Source of the DNA: a virus
Reading direction: 5' to 3' (one strand)
Virus record (IMG/VR): IMGVR_UViG_3300007734_000529
Coordinates: 1-26,820 of that record
DNA: 26,820 nt
Shown: positions 11,462 to 18,591 of the stretch, piece after piece
Layout: each line of letters starts with the position of its first letter
How positions within the stretch are numbered: the stretch's first letter is position 1
The notes under the pieces: generated by a model
Database searches by the model: none
What the model was told of the DNA's origin: nothing
What the model saw: the letters and a program-made list of their open reading frames with translations, nothing else
Program-made: the position numbers and the translations under genes

Positions 11462-12717
11462 GTCGTGCCTCTATTCGTGGTTGCCACCGCGCTGCCCATG
11501 TAGGCACGCCGTGTTTGCGCTGTTACTCCCATCCGCTCGGCACCGTACCACGCCAAAGCGTGAGCACACACCGTGTCGTCGTGCACACCGCTCGGCGCGC
11601 CATACACTACTCGGCCCTGCTTTACATCATACTCGAACGCTTCGAGCTCGGCGCGGTGCGGGCCGTCGAGCACGCTCGTTCTACCTTGTTGCAGCGCCAG
11701 TGCAAGCCCCTCCATCAACCCCTGCTTGCTAGCCGAGCTGAAGATGAACGCCTCGCACCACAGCCTGGACGACACCAGCTGCTCGCCAACCGCGTCGCCA
11801 ACACCCGTCGCATCGTAGAACAGGCACGACTTGCTGCCGGCACCCACGATGCGCGTCACCTCGGCCACCAGCGACGAGTAGCTCAAGCCGTGCCAGCGGT
11901 GCATCACCGAGACATGCCGGTTACTGTCGAGGCCCATCAGCACCGCGTAGTCGCGCTTGCGTGCTATGTCTAAACCCCATACCCGAACGGGGTTGCCAGT
12001 CGGCTGCCCGTTGTTGAGCTCAGCGCAGGCCCGTACCGAGTCGATGCCAAACGGATTGCCCCCGTCGTCGGCGGGCTCGCAGTAGTACAGCTCCCGGAAC
12101 ACAGCCGCAGGCAGCGAACGCCGAGCCATCTCGAGGTCGGACTCAGAGAACAGCCCGCCGGCAATCGCGTCGTCGGCCGTCAGTCGGTGGTAGGCAAAGC
12201 CCGGCTCACCCGACTCACCCTTGCGCGACCACTGGTAGTGACGGTTGGCTCGTCCTCGCACATTGCCACACAGCCGCAGCTTGCCTCGGGTCTTGGTGGT
12301 GGTCGAGTAGACCGCGTCAACCGCGTCGTCCTTCATGCGGCTGGCCTCGTCCAAGACCGCGCTGGTCACTGCAGAGCCATAGAGGTTGTCAGGCTTGTCT
12401 GCCGAGCGGAACGACCACCGCCGGTCACCTGGTGCGATGATTGCCTTGTCGGCCAACGCCTGCCTAAACCCCGGCTTGCCTCGCAGCAAGGACCATGCGA
12501 CGCGGTAGGCCATCATGCTCTGCTCGTACACCGGCGCCACCCACCAGTGCTCAGCGTCGGGCGGGCCCTCGAGCAGCTGCTTGATTTGCCAGACGATGGC
12601 CGAGGTGGTCTTGCCGCTCTTGGTCGTGCTCTCGATGCAGACGATGCGGCTCGGGTCGTTGATGGCATCCCATTGCTTTGCATACAGGGCCGGAAGGATG
12701 ACCTCGGCGTTAGCCAC
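11455..12717 (-). CDS. terL: Terminase large subunit
   Basis: 420 residues from a GTG start (TAGTG overlap with the small subunit stop). The ATPase half shows a Walker A-like STTKSGKTT (residues 30-38) and a Walker B VLDEAS (121-126). The nuclease half shows GLDIARKRDY (Asp-250), YDATGVGD (301-308) and HDD (379-381), the three acidic sites of the RNase H-like packaging nuclease. The motor cuts concatemeric DNA and pumps it through the portal. Walker A has Thr-Lys-Ser-Gly-Lys instead of the usual G-x-x-G spacing, as in other phage terminases. Confidence 0.9.
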   Translation of the reverse strand: MANAEVILPALYAKQWDAINDPSRIVCIESTTKSGKTTSAIVWQIKQLLEGPPDAEHWWVAPVYEQSMMAYRVAWSLLRGKPGFRQALADKAIIAPGDRRWSFRSADKPDNLYGSAVTSAVLDEASRMKDDAVDAVYSTTTKTRGKLRLCGNVRGRANRHYQWSRKGESGEPGFAYHRLTADDAIAGGLFSESDLEMARRSLPAAVFRELYYCEPADDGGNPFGIDSVRACAELNNGQPTGNPVRVWGLDIARKRDYAVLMGLDSNRHVSVMHRWHGLSYSSLVAEVTRIVGAGSKSCLFYDATGVGDAVGEQLVSSRLWCEAFIFSSASKQGLMEGLALALQQGRTSVLDGPHRAELEAFEYDVKQGRVVYGAPSGVHDDTVCAHALAWYGAERMGVTAQTRRAYMGSAVATTNRGTTW

Positions 12718-13130
12718 TACTCACCCTCATCAACACGCATGACACGCGGTATCGTGACCGTGAACTTGATGGGCTCGCCACCGCTGGTCAGGTCGAGAGC
12801 CGACTTGGTCACAGCGTCGAGGCCGTTGAGCTTGGCCCGCCGCTCCTCGATGCTAAGCACCGTGCTCACTGCCTTGAGGTCTCCCTCCTTGGCCTGCGTC
12901 CACACCGAGCGCAGCAGAGCATCGAGCCGCTCGGCAGCCTCTTTCCGCTCCTCGGTCGCACTCGCCAGGACATACTCCTCGACCTCTTTGCGGTGCTGGG
13001 TCAGCAGCTCGGTCACCACCTTGCGACTCAGGCCGAGCTTCTGCCCGATGTCATTGTGAGACCATCCACCCAGCCGCAGCTCCCATGCCTGTCGCACGAG
13101 CTCGGCTCGCTGTTCGTTACTCAGTGCCAT
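12717..13130 (-). CDS. terS: Terminase small subunit candidate
   Basis: 137 residues from the ATG at 13130 (MALSNEQRAELVRQAWELRL). GGWSHNDIGQKLGLSRKVVTELLTQH is a helix-turn-helix, followed by a long acidic/basic coiled segment and a short C-terminal beta region, the general plan of small terminases that recognise the packaging site and regulate the large subunit. A TTG 12 codons upstream is a less likely start. It is the first gene of the late operon and directly adjoins the origin-like repeat region, so it may bind there. The ribosome site is weak. Confidence 0.72.
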   Translation of the reverse strand: MALSNEQRAELVRQAWELRLGGWSHNDIGQKLGLSRKVVTELLTQHRKEVEEYVLASATEERKEAAERLDALLRSVWTQAKEGDLKAVSTVLSIEERRAKLNGLDAVTKSALDLTSGGEPIKFTVTIPRVMRVDEGE

Positions 13131-13323
13131 GGAGCCGATTGTGGCACCGGTGGCTTGGCAGGTCAAGTGGCAGCTTTAAGGCCAGCGGTAACATGGTAAC
13201 ATCGGGCTTGTTACCGCAAAACCGCCGCAACCCCTTGAACTGACTAACGAATTTGGAGCGGTAACATAGTAACACGATTTTTGCATATACCATGTGTAAA
13301 TCGAGAGGAGCCTCCTTGTGCAG

Positions 13324-13350
13324 GTGCGCGTGCCCGCGCGCGCGCGTATA
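13324..13350. other. Alternating purine-pyrimidine tract
   Basis: GTGCGCGTGC (13324-13333) is followed by six CG steps and TATA (13335-13350). Such alternation favours Z-DNA or easy opening under supercoiling. It lies in the middle of the octamer array, near the AT-rich stretch. Confidence 0.45.
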
Positions 13351-13381
13351 GGTGCTTGTTTTGGATGTTACTCATGTTACC

Positions 13382-13425
13382 GTATCAAAAACTAACTACT
13401 ATCTATAAACAAAACAAGGACATAA
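13382..13425. other. AT-rich stretch, possible unwinding element
   Basis: A 44-base run of low GC (mostly A with T and C on this strand), unlike the GC-rich surroundings, sits between inverted octamers at 13365-13381 and direct octamers at 13426-13458. In iteron-type origins the DNA-melting element has this position. Confidence 0.5.
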
Positions 13426-13612
13426 GCGGTAACATCAGCGGTAACATCCGAGTAACATGCTATGTTACCGCAAATCGGCTAAGTCGTTGAAACCTCGTTG
13501 GGGGTCCTCGGCGCGGCCGTCCAAAGCTCTCAAAACCGGTCATCCTCGCGTGCGCGAAGGGGCCGAGGCCAGTGCACCGTGAGCCGTCATCAGCACCCCA
13601 GCCCAAAAGACA

Positions 13613-13659
13613 TCGAGGCCCTCTCACTTGATGCCACGACAGCAGTGAGAGGACCTCGA
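13613..13659. repeat. Long inverted repeat (15 of 16 pairs)
   Basis: TCGAGG-c-CCTCTCACT (13613-13628) pairs with AGTGAGAGG-a-CCTCGA (13644-13659), with one C/A mismatch and a 15-base loop. No T run follows, so it is not an ordinary terminator. It ends 11 bases before the promoter-like TTGACA. Possible roles: primosome or single-strand initiation site, terminator of upstream transcription, or small RNA. Confidence 0.6.
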
Positions 13660-13669
13660 CTAGCTACTC

Positions 13670-13698
13670 TTGACAGGAGGTAGTCAGAGCGGCATAAG
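13670..13698 (+). promoter_or_regulatory. Promoter-like site for the early block
   Basis: A perfect TTGACA (13670-13675) is followed by a 17-base spacer and CATAAG (13693-13698, 4 of 6 to the consensus). Predicted transcription would start near 13705, placing a CGACAA hairpin at the very 5' end of the mRNA. Confidence 0.5.
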
Positions 13699-13705
13699 GG
13701 TCAGC

Positions 13706-13723
13706 GAGCCGCGACAACGGCTC
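13706..13723 (+). promoter_or_regulatory. CGACAA-loop hairpin 1 (primase leader)
   Basis: GAGCCG (13706-13711), loop CGACAA, CGGCTC (13718-13723): six perfect pairs. The same hexaloop on different stems recurs at 16663-16680 and 18576-18591. A second hairpin, CCTCGG-tatac-CCGAGG, lies at 13738-13754 between this one and the gene. Confidence 0.6.
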
Positions 13724-13786
13724 ATCAACCTGATGGGCCTCGGTATACCCGAGGTGCCTAGTTTTTGCAAGCCCCCACGAGGTATC

Positions 13787-16582
13787 ATGCAAGATGTATT
13801 GAGTTTGTTTGCTCAAGCCGCAGAGGCCGAGCGCGGTCTCCTATTCCCCGACGGCGTGATAGCCAATGGCGAGCACCACCGCGTGCCGACCGTGTCGAAG
13901 CCCGACAAGAAGAACGGCTGGTATGTGGTCCACCTCAACGACGGCCCCGGCCAGAGTGGAGTAGTGGTGGGTGTGTTCAACGACCTTGCAGCTGGTCAGC
14001 CGGATGTGAAGTGGTCGAGCTCGGCCAACAAGCGTCCCGAGGTGAGCATCGAGGAGGCAACGGCTGCGATGAAGAAGAAGATAGCCGAGGCCGCCAAGGT
14101 GAAGGTGGACAAGGCCGAGGCAGCCATCAACGAGGTGACGGCCGAGATAGCCAAGGCAAAGCCGGTGCAGGTGGCGTTTGGCTACCTCGAGCACAAGGGT
14201 GTCGGGTCGGTGCCTGGACTGTATCGCAACGGCAGCACGCTGGTGGTGCCGCTGAAGGACGACAAGCAGCGTGTGGTGAACATGCAGCGCATCTGGCAGG
14301 ACAAAGATGGCGTGTGGCAGAAGCGGTATCAGAAGAACGCGACACGGGTGGGCACCTACTTTGCCATCAAGGCCAGCAGCGACACGGTGGCGATTTGCGA
14401 GGGGTTGGCGACAGGCATCAGTATCTATGAGGCAACAGGTTGGACGGTGCTTGCAGCTGGTGACACGACGCAGCTGATGGCGGTAGCCAAGATGGCTCGT
14501 CGGATGATGCCAGGTAGCCAAATCATCTTGTGCGCTGACGATGACCGCATGACAGAGGGCAACCCGGGCTTGACCAAGGCTCGAGAGGCAGCCGAGGCAG
14601 TGAGGGGCGAGGTTCGGTGGCCGGTGTTTGACGACCTCGACAGCATGGGCACGGACTTCAACGACCTGCACCAGGAGCAGGGGTTAGCCGAGGTGAAGCT
14701 GCAGCTGGAGGCCAAGCGAGAGGTGGTGGACGATGTGCCTTTGCCTGAGGAGGCCCCTTACTACGAGGAGGAGCTTGGCACCGAGAAGCCGGCAGGTGAG
14801 GAGGCATGGGTGCCCAAGGGCTACGAGTTCACGAAGAGCGGTGCAGTGGTGCGCTTGCCTGCCGACAGCAAGAAGGAGCCGACGCTGGTGAGCTTGCAGC
14901 CATTGTGGGTGGCAGGTGTGCGCGTGGACGCGGTTGAGGGCACTCGGTCGATGCTGGTGAAGTGGTGCACACCTCGAGCAGGTGAGTTCGGGCGGTTCGA
15001 TAAGCCGCAGCAGGTCATCGTGGACCGAGGCACGCTGCTGAATGCTCGTGGCATTGTGGCGCTGGCAAGCAGTGGGTTTCCGGTAGACTCGACATGCGCC
15101 AGCGAGGTGGTGTTGTACCTTCGCAAGGCAGAGACGCAGTACCTTGCCTCGACGGTGCGAGCGGCGCAAGAGATGGTGGCAAGCGTGACGGGCTGGCATG
15201 GGGCGCTTGACTGGACTGCCCCCAGCTTCTTGATAGGCGAGAAGCAGGCCGGCGTGGGTTGCCCGACATTCGAGAACCTCAACCCTGAGTTAGCTAGGCA
15301 TGTGGGCTTGTTCACTGTGAGCGGTGAGGCATCGAAGCAGCTGGTGGTGCTGCGAGACATCGTGGACCAGCACCCCGACATGGCGACGGTGGTTGCGATG
15401 GCGCTTGCGTCGCCTTTGATGCGGATAGTGTCAGCGCCGGTGTTTGTCCTGGACATCGCGTGCGAGTCGAGCCGAGGCAAGACCAAGGCACTGCTGGTGG
15501 CAGCGTCGGTGTATGGCTCGCCGCAGACGATGCGCAGCTGGGACACCACCAAGTTCGCGCTCGAGATAGTAGCCAATGCGCAGCGAGGGCTGCCGCTGCT
15601 GCTGGACGAGACGCAGCGAGCGAGCAAGCCCGAGATGGTGCAGCCGATGGTGTACGACCTCTGCAATGCCGAGGGCAAGATGCGAGGCAAGGCCGACGGT
15701 GGCGTGCGTGCTGTGTCTCGGTACGAGTCGCTGGTCATCAGCACAGGCGAGCAGAGCATCTCGGCGTTTGGCGACGCAGGTGGTGCCAGAGCGCGAATCC
15801 TGACGATTCAAGGCAGCCCATGGCGGTTGCCTATGGCAAAGCCTACCCCCGAGGCAATCAGGGCCTTGACGGTGTACCAGAGCGCGAGCCTCGACACGCT
15901 GTCAGACCACTACGGGCACGCGGGTCGGATGTTTGCCGAGAAGGTGGCGTTGCTGACTGAGGACGAGCGCCGGGAGCTGCGAGCTCGTTACCGTGAGCTG
16001 GTGCACGCTCGGTCGTTGTCGGTAGAGGAGCTGAGCCCCAGCCACCCGATTGGGTCTCGGCTGTCGACCTATGCCGCTCTGATTGACCTTGCCGGCGAGC
16101 TGGCCGAGCGGTGGCTTGAGATGAAGCCAGCAGCGTGGCTGTGCCATGAGCGGTGGTGCGCTATGCTCGGTGCCGGCCGTCCTGCCGATGTGGCGACGCA
16201 GGCGATGGAGCGGCTGATTGCATGGGGCTGGTCTAGGTCAGCGCAGCTGCACGGACATGGCGACGCGACCAAGACTTTGGGCCGAGACGCTATCGGGACC
16301 TTCTCGGTAGATGCGGTGACAGGCAGGCCCAAGCTGCAGTTTGTGATGGCAACGGCCAACGACATGCTGCGCTCGGCAGGCTACCAGCCGGGAGCCGTGG
16401 CAGCGACATGGGCCTCACGCGGTTGGCTTGTCGGTGACAAGGGGTCAAATACTTCTAAAGTGGTTAGTGTGTCGGGGTTTAAGGTGCGCATGTACGACTT
16501 GAGCACGGTAGTGCACGCGCTGCATGTGTGGCCTAGCGAGGACGCGGCACCCAACATCTTTGGTGATGATGTGCCGTTCTGA
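13787..16582 (+). CDS. Primase-helicase (Toprim plus DUF927-like ATPase)
   Basis: 931 residues from the ATG at 13787 (MQDVLSLFAQAAEAERGLLF), which has GAGGT 4 bases upstream. An upstream TTG at 13670 in frame would overlap the promoter-like site and hairpins, so it was not chosen. Residues 1-200 resemble the primase front of P4-type proteins. A Toprim domain follows (ICEGLATG 203-210, ADDD 250-253, GTDFND 288-293). Residues 340-640 form a DUF927-like helicase with Walker A ESSRGKTK (560-567) and Walker B LPLLLDE (602-608). It would unwind and prime phage DNA at the adjacent origin. The C-terminus GDDVPF resembles the tip of single-strand binding protein. Confidence 0.85.
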   Translation: MQDVLSLFAQAAEAERGLLFPDGVIANGEHHRVPTVSKPDKKNGWYVVHLNDGPGQSGVVVGVFNDLAAGQPDVKWSSSANKRPEVSIEEATAAMKKKIAEAAKVKVDKAEAAINEVTAEIAKAKPVQVAFGYLEHKGVGSVPGLYRNGSTLVVPLKDDKQRVVNMQRIWQDKDGVWQKRYQKNATRVGTYFAIKASSDTVAICEGLATGISIYEATGWTVLAAGDTTQLMAVAKMARRMMPGSQIILCADDDRMTEGNPGLTKAREAAEAVRGEVRWPVFDDLDSMGTDFNDLHQEQGLAEVKLQLEAKREVVDDVPLPEEAPYYEEELGTEKPAGEEAWVPKGYEFTKSGAVVRLPADSKKEPTLVSLQPLWVAGVRVDAVEGTRSMLVKWCTPRAGEFGRFDKPQQVIVDRGTLLNARGIVALASSGFPVDSTCASEVVLYLRKAETQYLASTVRAAQEMVASVTGWHGALDWTAPSFLIGEKQAGVGCPTFENLNPELARHVGLFTVSGEASKQLVVLRDIVDQHPDMATVVAMALASPLMRIVSAPVFVLDIACESSRGKTKALLVAASVYGSPQTMRSWDTTKFALEIVANAQRGLPLLLDETQRASKPEMVQPMVYDLCNAEGKMRGKADGGVRAVSRYESLVISTGEQSISAFGDAGGARARILTIQGSPWRLPMAKPTPEAIRALTVYQSASLDTLSDHYGHAGRMFAEKVALLTEDERRELRARYRELVHARSLSVEELSPSHPIGSRLSTYAALIDLAGELAERWLEMKPAAWLCHERWCAMLGAGRPADVATQAMERLIAWGWSRSAQLHGHGDATKTLGRDAIGTFSVDAVTGRPKLQFVMATANDMLRSAGYQPGAVAATWASRGWLVGDKGSNTSKVVSVSGFKVRMYDLSTVVHALHVWPSEDAAPNIFGDDVPF

Positions 16583-16586
16583 GTAG

Positions 16587-16653
16587 AAATCGACATCGGT
16601 GGGCAAAAATCGACATCGAAGGAGTTGACGGCAGGTGAATACCTGTTAGGACC
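16587..16653 (+). promoter_or_regulatory. Regulated promoter-like region with direct and inverted repeats
   Basis: AAATCGACATCG occurs at 16587-16598 and 16607-16618, period 20. Next comes TTGACG (16625-16630), then CAGGTgaatACCTG (16632-16645), a 5-base inverted repeat inside the spacer. The matching -10 box is weak (TAGGAC near 16647). The layout suggests an activator site upstream and a repressor site in the spacer. Confidence 0.45.
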
Positions 16654-16662
16654 TCTTCTCAC

Positions 16663-16680
16663 CGGCAGCGACAACTGCCG
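16663..16680 (+). promoter_or_regulatory. CGACAA-loop hairpin 2 (leader of the 16732 gene)
   Basis: CGGCAG (16663-16668), loop CGACAA, CTGCCG (16675-16680). It starts 38 bases after the start of the TTGACG box; hairpin 1 starts 36 bases after its TTGACA. A further hairpin GCCTC-gctta-GAGGC is at 16699-16713, before the ribosome site AGGAG. Confidence 0.58.
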
Positions 16681-16731
16681 ACCCTACATAGTCACCCCGC
16701 CTCGCTTAGAGGCACACCCAGGAGAGAAGCC

Positions 16732-17148
16732 ATGAGGCTTACCATCGACAACGCGTCTGAGACTTTCGTCCACCTCGTCAACACCATCACCGGAGGCAAC
16801 TTCGAGCAGAGCAAGACCTGCGTGATTGGCGACACCCGCTGCGCAAGCGTCATCTACAACGCTGCCAACCGTACCTCGGTTGACTACAGCTTCACGCTGG
16901 CCCTCATCGAGACGGGCAAGGATGCATCTGGCGAGCTGGTCCACGACATGCGCGTGATTGCCAACCGCACGGTCAACCTGCCTTGGTCGCAGGGCAACCG
17001 CACGAGCATCACCTCGGTTGCTATCTCTGACCAGTCGCCCATCGACCTCAACAACCTTGGGCTTGCCATCGAGGGCTGCATCGACCGCCTCAGCGAGCAG
17101 GCCGACCTGCTTAGCCAGCATGTGCGCAGCGAGGTGGCCTATGTCTAA
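16732..17148 (+). CDS. Hypothetical early protein
   Basis: 138 residues, start MRLTIDNASETFVHLVNTIT behind AGGAGAGAAG. The protein is acidic to neutral, with two Cys near residues 30 and 37, a beta-rich middle (YSFTLALIETG, RTVNLPWSQGNRTSITSVAI) and a C-terminal helix. It is unrecognised. It is the first gene of a recombination operon, overlaps the YqaJ gene by 8 bases (ATGTCTAA) and has an elaborate leader with repeats and hairpins, so it may be a small accessory or host-takeover protein made early. Confidence 0.7.
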   Translation: MRLTIDNASETFVHLVNTITGGNFEQSKTCVIGDTRCASVIYNAANRTSVDYSFTLALIETGKDASGELVHDMRVIANRTVNLPWSQGNRTSITSVAISDQSPIDLNNLGLAIEGCIDRLSEQADLLSQHVRSEVAYV

Positions 17149-18190
17149 GGTCAACTACCCCAACGCGGTGCGTCAGATTCCGGTGCACGAGCACGGCAGC
17201 AAGGCATGGCTCATCGAGCGTGCCAACACCCTCGGCGCTTCTGAGCTGGGCAAGGCGCTCGGTGTCTCGCCTTACGGTGGCCTGCTGTCTCTGGTCATCG
17301 ACAAGCGCCAGGCACTTGCCGGCAACCCCGAGGTCATCAGCTCCGATGCGATGCAGGACGGGCAGGATGCAGAGGACACGGTGCTGCGCATGGCATGGCG
17401 TCGGCTGCAGCAGCTCGCTGGCGGTGCCTACTACAGCACGCCCCAGCCTGAGATGGTCAAGGGCACGGCCATCGCCCTCGGCGCTGTGTCGGCTACCCCT
17501 GATGCGCTCATCATCGACCAAGAGACGGGCAACGCGGTTAGTCTTATTGAGGCAAAGCTCGACCGGTCACGCAATACCGATTGGGCCGAGGTGCTCGAGA
17601 ACGGCTTTGGCCACTTGAGCGGGCAGGACCTGCGGTTGAACTACTGGTGGCAGGTGCAGACCCAGCTGTATGTGACTGGCATCTCGGTTGGTTACCTCGC
17701 AGTGTGGACGGTGTTCTCGTTCTACCTCATCGAGATTGAGGCAGACGAAGCCGCAGCCGATGTGATTGCCCAGGTTGGCCCGACGGTCATGGCATGGGTT
17801 ACCGACTCGGCCGACAGGTTGCCGGCACCGACCGACGCTGACGGGCTGCGCACCATCGCAAGCACGGTGCGTCCTGCCTCTGAGGGCCCCATTGAGGTGG
17901 AGGGCGAGGTTGCCGAGGCCCTTGCTGCCTATGTCTCGCTGGGCAAGCAGATTGACGGCCTTGAGGAGCAGCGTGACGCAGCCAAGCGCATCATTCTGAC
18001 GGCTCACAATGCCGGTGCCAAGCTGGCCTCGGCCGACGGCATCAAGAGCAGCTTCATCGCAGCGTCGGAGCGCATGAGCCTCGACACCAAGAAGCTCGAG
18101 ACTGACCACCCGGCACTGGTGGCAGACTACCGCAAGGTGACGCAGGTGTCGGCCTCGTGCCGCGTGACCGCGCCGCGTAGCAAGGGCTAA
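17141..18190 (+). CDS. YqaJ-type viral recombinase (5'-3' exonuclease)
   Basis: 349 residues from the ATG at 17141, overlapping the previous stop. GSKAWLIERANTLGASELGK and ALGVSPYGGLLSLVIDKR match the opening of YqaJ-like exonucleases (lambda Exo fold). The nuclease core is PDALI (Asp-121), LIEAK (Glu-137, Lys-139) and YWWQVQTQLYVTG (Gln-171 helix), the PD-(D/E)xK layout. The C-terminal 100 residues add a coiled-coil (VSLGKQIDGLEEQRDAAKRI) seen in many phage members. It would resect DNA ends for the RecT annealase encoded at 19291. An earlier in-frame start at 16958 overlaps the previous gene and is rejected. Confidence 0.85.
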   Translation: MSKVNYPNAVRQIPVHEHGSKAWLIERANTLGASELGKALGVSPYGGLLSLVIDKRQALAGNPEVISSDAMQDGQDAEDTVLRMAWRRLQQLAGGAYYSTPQPEMVKGTAIALGAVSATPDALIIDQETGNAVSLIEAKLDRSRNTDWAEVLENGFGHLSGQDLRLNYWWQVQTQLYVTGISVGYLAVWTVFSFYLIEIEADEAAADVIAQVGPTVMAWVTDSADRLPAPTDADGLRTIASTVRPASEGPIEVEGEVAEALAAYVSLGKQIDGLEEQRDAAKRIILTAHNAGAKLASADGIKSSFIAASERMSLDTKKLETDHPALVADYRKVTQVSASCRVTAPRSKG

Positions 18191-18242
18191 GCCCGGTGGC
18201 AGGTGCAACCCCTGCCATGCTGCCTACCGCCCAATGTCGGGC
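18191..18242 (+). ncRNA. Structured leader element A (T-loop-like hairpin)
   Basis: Right after the TAA stop comes GCCCG, then a 7-pair stem TGGCAGG / CCTGCCA (18197-18203 and 18211-18217) with 7-base loop TGCAACC. GCCCG (18191-18195) can pair with CGGGC (18238-18242) as an outer stem. Element B (18536) has the same plan with a different stem. It is probably an RNA element in the leader of the gene at 18260. Confidence 0.55.
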
Positions 18243-18259
18243 AAGCCAGGAGAGAGACG

Positions 18260-18535
18260 ATGAGTGACCCACTGAAGATTGAGATTGTGATGTTGGCTGT
18301 GCAGCGCCGCGTGTTGCCTTTGCAGGGTGAGACAGCAATTGAGCACGCGGTGCGGCTCTACAAGATTGCCGGTGACTGCATGGCTGCGCTCGAGGCCAAG
18401 GTTGAGGCCGAGGAGCCGGCGCCTGCAACCCCTGTCGCTGTGGCTGACATCGGTGTTTGGAGCAAGGGTGACATCTTCGTTTGGGAGGTGCCCAAGGGTA
18501 AGCGAGTGACAATCAGCAAGCAGCGCCGGGACTAA
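18260..18535 (+). CDS. Small hypothetical protein
   Basis: 91 residues from the ATG at 18260 (MSDPLKIEIVMLAVQRRVLP), behind AGGAGAGAGACG. An amphipathic helical first half (AVRLYKIAGDCMAALEAKVE) is followed by a Pro/Ala linker and a beta-like tail (GVWSKGDIFVWEVPKGKRVT). Unrecognised. It sits between two structured elements of similar sequence, A before and B after, suggesting shared control with the YqaJ and 18611 genes. Confidence 0.7.
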   Translation: MSDPLKIEIVMLAVQRRVLPLQGETAIEHAVRLYKIAGDCMAALEAKVEAEEPAPATPVAVADIGVWSKGDIFVWEVPKGKRVTISKQRRD

Positions 18536-18591
18536 GCCCGCTGCTGGGTGCAAGCCCCAGCACGCCGCCTCACCCGCTGCCGACAAGCAGC
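18536..18591 (+). ncRNA. Structured leader element B (T-loop-like hairpin plus CGACAA hairpin 3)
   Basis: After the TAA stop: GCCCG (18536-18540), then stem TGCTGGG / CCCAGCA (18542-18548, 18556-18562) with loop TGCAAGC. Distances match element A exactly, while the stem bases differ but still pair. A second hairpin follows: GCTGC (18576-18580), loop CGACAA, GCAGC (18587-18591). Leader of the gene at 18611. Confidence 0.58.

Follow-up and report, generated by a model that had tools for sequence, protein, structure and literature searches.

A hairpin with a CNACAA loop at the predicted 5' ends of early transcripts in several phage lineages

The DNA analyzed here, referred to as the window, is a stretch of 26,820 nucleotides from an IMG/VR virus record, and the phage is termed freshwater-type. 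Its rightward early genes begin with a DNA primase/helicase identified by its Toprim_3 and DUF927 domains (positions 13787 to 16582, plus strand), followed by a 138-amino-acid protein, a RecE-like exonuclease, and RecT. The terminase genes are carried on the opposite strand. The sequence predicts that the primase-helicase transcript starts near 13703, from a promoter, P1 (13670 to 13698, plus strand), with a -35 box TTGACA at 13670, a spacer of 17 nt, and CATAAG at 13693; relatives keep the -35 box and the spacer. A second predicted promoter, P2 (16625 to 16652, plus strand), has TTGACG at 16625 and an extended -10 element, TGtTAGGAC, at 16644, with a predicted start near 16661, and its TGTTAGGAC is kept in relatives.

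The divergent region between the terminase and early genes (13190 to 13470) contains a set of operator-like or origin-like repeats, in which GGTAACA(T) or its complement recurs many times; relatives conserve them. Immediately 5' of the P1 -35 box lies a long inverted repeat (CGAGGCCCTCTCAC ... GTGAGAGGACCTCG, 13614 to 13659), which relatives keep with changed arms and whose loop holds a constant GCCACGACA. On the minus strand, a candidate leftward promoter (TTGACC, 17 nt, CACAAT; 13125 to 13170) is placed about 7 nt before the conserved ATG of a small-terminase-like gene. The position of the promoter end suggests that this gene is expressed from a leaderless mRNA.

The preliminary description of this DNA reported three hairpins with the loop CGACAA, and all three were found to have Watson-Crick stems at the positions given. 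Hairpin 1 (GAGCCG-CGACAA-CGGCTC, 13706 to 13723, plus strand) and hairpin 2 (CGGCAG-CGACAA-CTGCCG, 16663 to 16680, plus strand) have perfect 6-bp stems, and hairpin 3 (GCTGC-CGACAA-GCAGC, 18576 to 18591, plus strand) has a perfect 5-bp stem. The stems of hairpins 1 and 2 begin about 3 to 4 nt after the predicted starts of P1 and P2 (approximately +3 to +5), each near the predicted start of a TTGAC-type promoter, and this supports the original placement of both at or close to the beginning of early messages. A promoter-plus-hairpin model gave two matches in the whole window, the P1 and P2 sites, both rightward; it matched nowhere on the leftward strand, which carries the terminase genes. The plus strand of the window has 34 perfect hairpins with a 6-nt loop and a stem 5 bp or longer. 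CGACAA was the only loop listed repeatedly (3 of 34), and it is found in two of the six whose stems reach 6 bp or more. In 300 dinucleotide shuffles, no loop occurred in three hairpins of which two had stems this long, and CGACAA hairpins occurred at a mean of 0.02 per shuffle, so the set in the window stands above background. As a bare hexamer, CGACAA is itself overrepresented in the window (34 sites versus 11 expected); therefore, the signal is the hairpin context and not the hexamer.

The window and five other contigs with the same early region (six records) make up the family in which conservation was assessed. The CGACAA loop of hairpin 1 was unchanged in all six records. Its stem is GAGCCG/CGGCTC in the window, L002, and L003 and GGCAG/CTGCC in L004 and L005 (primase 78 to 79% identical); compared with the window, L004 and L005 have two base pairs altered on both sides, with CGACAA intact. 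The hairpin 1 stem of G001 (L021) is weak, being shortened to 4 bp. Hairpin 2 was found in 6 of 6 records, with a constant stem core and varying outer pairs. Hairpins 1 and 2 are a real, conserved RNA element. Hairpin 3 had been counted in the same family, a membership that the relatives contradict: it has no promoter, and at this position they carry GCCCC/GGGGC arms around the loop GCCTA or GATTA. Because the hairpin of the relatives at this site has different loops and resembles the one that precedes the ribosome-binding site in leader 2, hairpin 3 is a separate pre-RBS element, and its CGACAA loop is a coincidental match in this phage.

The pre-RBS hairpin of leader 2 (GCCTC-GCTTA-GAGGC, 16699 to 16713, plus strand) varies in its stem with pairing kept (GCCCC/GGGGC in L002 and L003, GCTCC/GGAGC in L004, and GCCTC/GAGGC in L005). 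The rest of leader 1 is a nearly invariant 57-nt element (13727 to 13783, plus strand), with 2 differences between the window and L004, compared with 77.7% identity in the coding sequence that follows. A terminator-like hairpin occupies 13737 to 13755 and is followed by TAGTTTTT. A possible fold pairs ACCU (13728 to 13731) with AGGU (13780 to 13783) over the ribosome-binding site. The second hairpins differ among the P1 leader, the P2 leader, and the leaders of other phages. Elsewhere, intergenic hairpins at 18196 to 18218 and 18542 to 18562 directly follow stop codons and have a T-loop-like 7-nt loop (TGCAACC or TGCAAGC); with relatives included, their stems (GGCAGG/CCTGCC, GCTGGG/CCCAGC, and GCCGGG/CCCGGC) vary and stay paired.

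We observed the same promoter-proximal hairpin in phages outside the family. A pattern scan of IMG/VR (TTGAC, 28 to 44 nt, GGCAGCGACAACTGCC) recovered L024, L025, L028, L035, and L029 beyond the family, with flanks unrelated to the window. In a relaxed scan, which put no constraint on the second base of the loop or on the outer pairs of the stem and so serves as its own control, every promoter-like noncoding match was fully paired, with a TTGAC-hairpin spacing of 32 to 35 nt, and mismatched stems were confined to open reading frames. The promoter-associated matches had either GGCAG/CTGCC stems with CGACAA or GCCAG/CTGGC stems with CCACAA. The relaxed scan added the lineages L058 and L061/L073; other members are L042, L044, L048, L050, and the named Leptolyngbya phage Lbo-JY16, and L046 has a variant form in which the loop is shifted. 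At least six phage lineages thus carry the hairpin 32 to 35 nt after TTGAC. Its loop is CCACAA in L042, L044, L048, L050, L058, L061, L073, and Lbo-JY16, giving the consensus CNACAA, closed by a G-C pair. In a 13-sequence alignment, 91% of cells were paired, whereas slid structures reached no more than 49%, and 4 of the 6 pairs had changes on both sides; few distinct stems stand behind these counts. Orthologues and separate lineages alike show compensatory changes in the stem, which supports the earlier proposal that RNA shape is under selection while the loop stays fixed. Matches in L043, L045, L047, and L049 fell in apparent coding sequence and were discounted as chance occurrences.

A separate observation concerns L029, in which approximately 135 nt of distal early leader (11486 to 11620) is conserved in the F116-type Pseudomonas phage LKA5 (L036, 2501 to 2632). 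The F116-type phages LKA5 and CF24a have this distal leader in common with L029 and lack the CNACAA hairpin. Such a leader is modular, long, and structured.

In most leaders of the unrelated carriers, the next feature is a short GGC-GAAA-GCC hairpin. The canonical boxA sequence GCTCTTTA is present in the leaders of L025, L028, L035, L042, L044, L046, L048, L050, and Lbo-JY16, located 30 to 37 nt from the hairpin start in the leaders checked; L042, L044, L048, and L050 were first found by a pattern that included boxA and were recovered by the relaxed scan without it. L029, L058, and L061 have the hairpin and no boxA, and no boxA (YGCTCTTWA) was found within 200 nt of hairpin 1 or 2 in the window and its five relatives. 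In most of the other phages, a strong terminator was not found close behind the hairpin. The strong terminator-like site of L081 lies inside apparent coding sequence and was discarded as evidence.

Judged by their sequences and predicted positions, hairpins 1 and 2 represent two occurrences of a single cis-acting RNA element with which both early transcripts begin, and this element is probably a start-of-message signal that alters early-gene transcription or protection. Our best guess, in which we place slightly less than even confidence, is a cis-acting early-leader processivity (antitermination) signal. That the loop is fixed while the stem varies points to loop recognition, the position at the early transcript start and the boxA companions point to a signal for elongation control, and the conserved terminator-like hairpin of leader 1 would offer a target for a processivity signal. 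The emerging hairpin would be read by the elongation machinery, whether RNA polymerase itself, Nus factors, or a phage protein, and would act in the manner of nut, put, or an rrn leader, allowing polymerase to read through terminators, for example the terminator-like hairpin approximately 36 nt downstream in leader 1. In leaders with the GGC-GAAA-GCC hairpin and boxA, recruitment of NusB/S10 would be included, and the window family would manage without boxA.

In favor of a processivity signal, we counted the conservation and covariation within the family and between lineages, the recurrence of fully paired promoter-associated stems at a constant spacing from TTGAC, the boxA companions with their rrn-like order of hairpin and then boxA, the terminator-like hairpin after hairpin 1, and the leftward strand free of promoter-hairpin matches. 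Counted against it were the lack of boxA in the window family, L029, L058, and L061 and the lack of an N-like protein common to all carriers. Terminator-like sites were not enriched in the early region (6 found versus 7.6 expected), and the scarcity of strong terminators close behind the hairpin in other phages also weighs against it, as does the P2 copy 3 kb farther on, which would be superfluous if polymerase from P1 were already modified; the starts are, moreover, predicted ones. The antitermination-type role first suggested for the hairpins therefore stands in part: boxA lies just downstream of the +1 hairpin in other phages that carry it, but not in the window family.

The main rival, which we regard as a serious though distinctly less probable reading, is protection of the 5' ends of early mRNAs. 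Here, approximately 2 to 4 unpaired nucleotides before a stable stem would hinder pyrophosphohydrolase and 5'-end-dependent RNase E, as in ompA and papA, and stabilization of mRNA by 5'-terminal stem-loops is documented according to references cited in PMC3997798. Hairpins 1 and 2 and all cross-lineage copies start a few nucleotides from the predicted start, and each early transcript start would need its own copy, which would explain two copies 3 kb apart. However, protection requires a stem and no particular loop, yet CNACAA is fixed and the stems are variable, and it leaves the boxA companions unexplained.

We consider it rather unlikely that the hairpin is the site of an N-type phage RNA-binding protein (a genuine nut/boxB whose N has diverged) or of a translational regulator. 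Small basic proteins are encoded in the early operon. A fixed loop on a variable stem would suit such a protein, and N peptides recognize hairpin loops that include a hexaloop as well as a pentaloop (CUAACC in phi21 and GACAA in P22; PMC12550061). However, no protein common to the window family and the other carriers was found, except RecT in two phages, although N proteins diverge fast and one may have escaped this comparison. The early proteins 20854 and 24841, named in the preliminary description as candidates for binding, were rejected as dedicated partners because they are not conserved alongside the hairpins: 24841 is missing from L004 and L005, both of which keep hairpins 1 and 2, and 20854 has only weak, partial matches. 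The loop G is not conserved either. The analogy once drawn with P22 boxB fails in detail, given that several lineages have C in place of the G of GACAA, that the window family has no boxA, and that no shared N-like protein was found; the CCACAA loops likewise rule out a P22-like GNRA pentaloop as a requirement. As for a translational regulator, hairpins 1 and 2 lie approximately 50 to 65 nt upstream of the start codons, away from the ribosome-binding site.

A DNA-level dyad, acting as an operator or an initial-transcribed-region element and not as RNA, would fit the location at the promoter start, and a dyad is a DNA feature too, but we judge it very improbable, as the arm changes preserve pairing and variable arms around a fixed asymmetric center are the reverse of a dimer operator. 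Resemblance by chance, or recent common descent with no function, might account for the identical GGCAG/CTGCC stem in several lineages but is scarcely credible, since the flanks are unrelated between lineages, none of the shuffles equaled the hairpin family of the window, and the same pattern gave 3 matches in 85,000 bacterial and archaeal genomes (257 billion bases), all chance-like and without promoter context (open reading frames are listed for L041).

Most known early antitermination signals stem from coliphages. The present hairpin, at the early transcript start of unrelated and mostly uncultured phages and in some of them joined to boxA, provides a searchable signature for early promoters and a system in which antitermination that lacks an obvious N protein could be tested. 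No Rfam covariance model matched the window, L025, or L029 above its gathering score, and a lax threshold gave weak chance matches. The open-access papers searched gave no description of the element and no occurrence of the hairpin sequence apart from one unrelated match of primer type.

Like the nut sites of the lambda type (lambda, P22, and phi21), the element is a fixed-loop hairpin near the early transcript start, with boxA in some carriers. In lambda nut sites, boxA precedes boxB; here, in contrast, the hairpin is 5' of boxA and at the very 5' end, no N was found, the hexaloop CNACAA lacks the G that is conserved in GNRA-like boxB loops (GNRNA), and the window is without boxA. The put sites of HK022 (putL and putR), whose RNA acts without a protein, resemble it in lying at the start of the early transcript, in consisting of hairpins, and in that no shared phage protein was found. 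As described, however, put RNA is approximately 70 nt long and combines two long stems with a triplex (PMC9378689), and this description sets it apart from a single hairpin of 16 to 18 nt that is the sole common part. In rrn leaders, the 5'-to-3' order is boxB, boxA, boxC (PMC10250234), and leaders of the L025, L048, L044, and Lbo-JY16 type have the same order of hairpin and then boxA; unlike rrn leaders, they serve phage early genes, the hairpin lies at predicted +3 to +5, and the window family lacks boxA. The 5' stem-loops of ompA and papA also begin a few nucleotides from the mRNA 5' end, as the phage stems are predicted to do, but in the phage hairpins the loop sequence is conserved. Phage early-leader RNA signals are known as a kind; the 5'-terminal CNACAA hairpin would be a further variety of them, with a modest chance of forming a class of its own. 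Tentatively, and as a possibility well short of probable, the CNACAA hairpin may be a previously undescribed 5'-terminal signal of unrelated phage lineages that is read by a host factor or RNA polymerase, with boxA optional, and that would constitute a new processivity class between nut and put.
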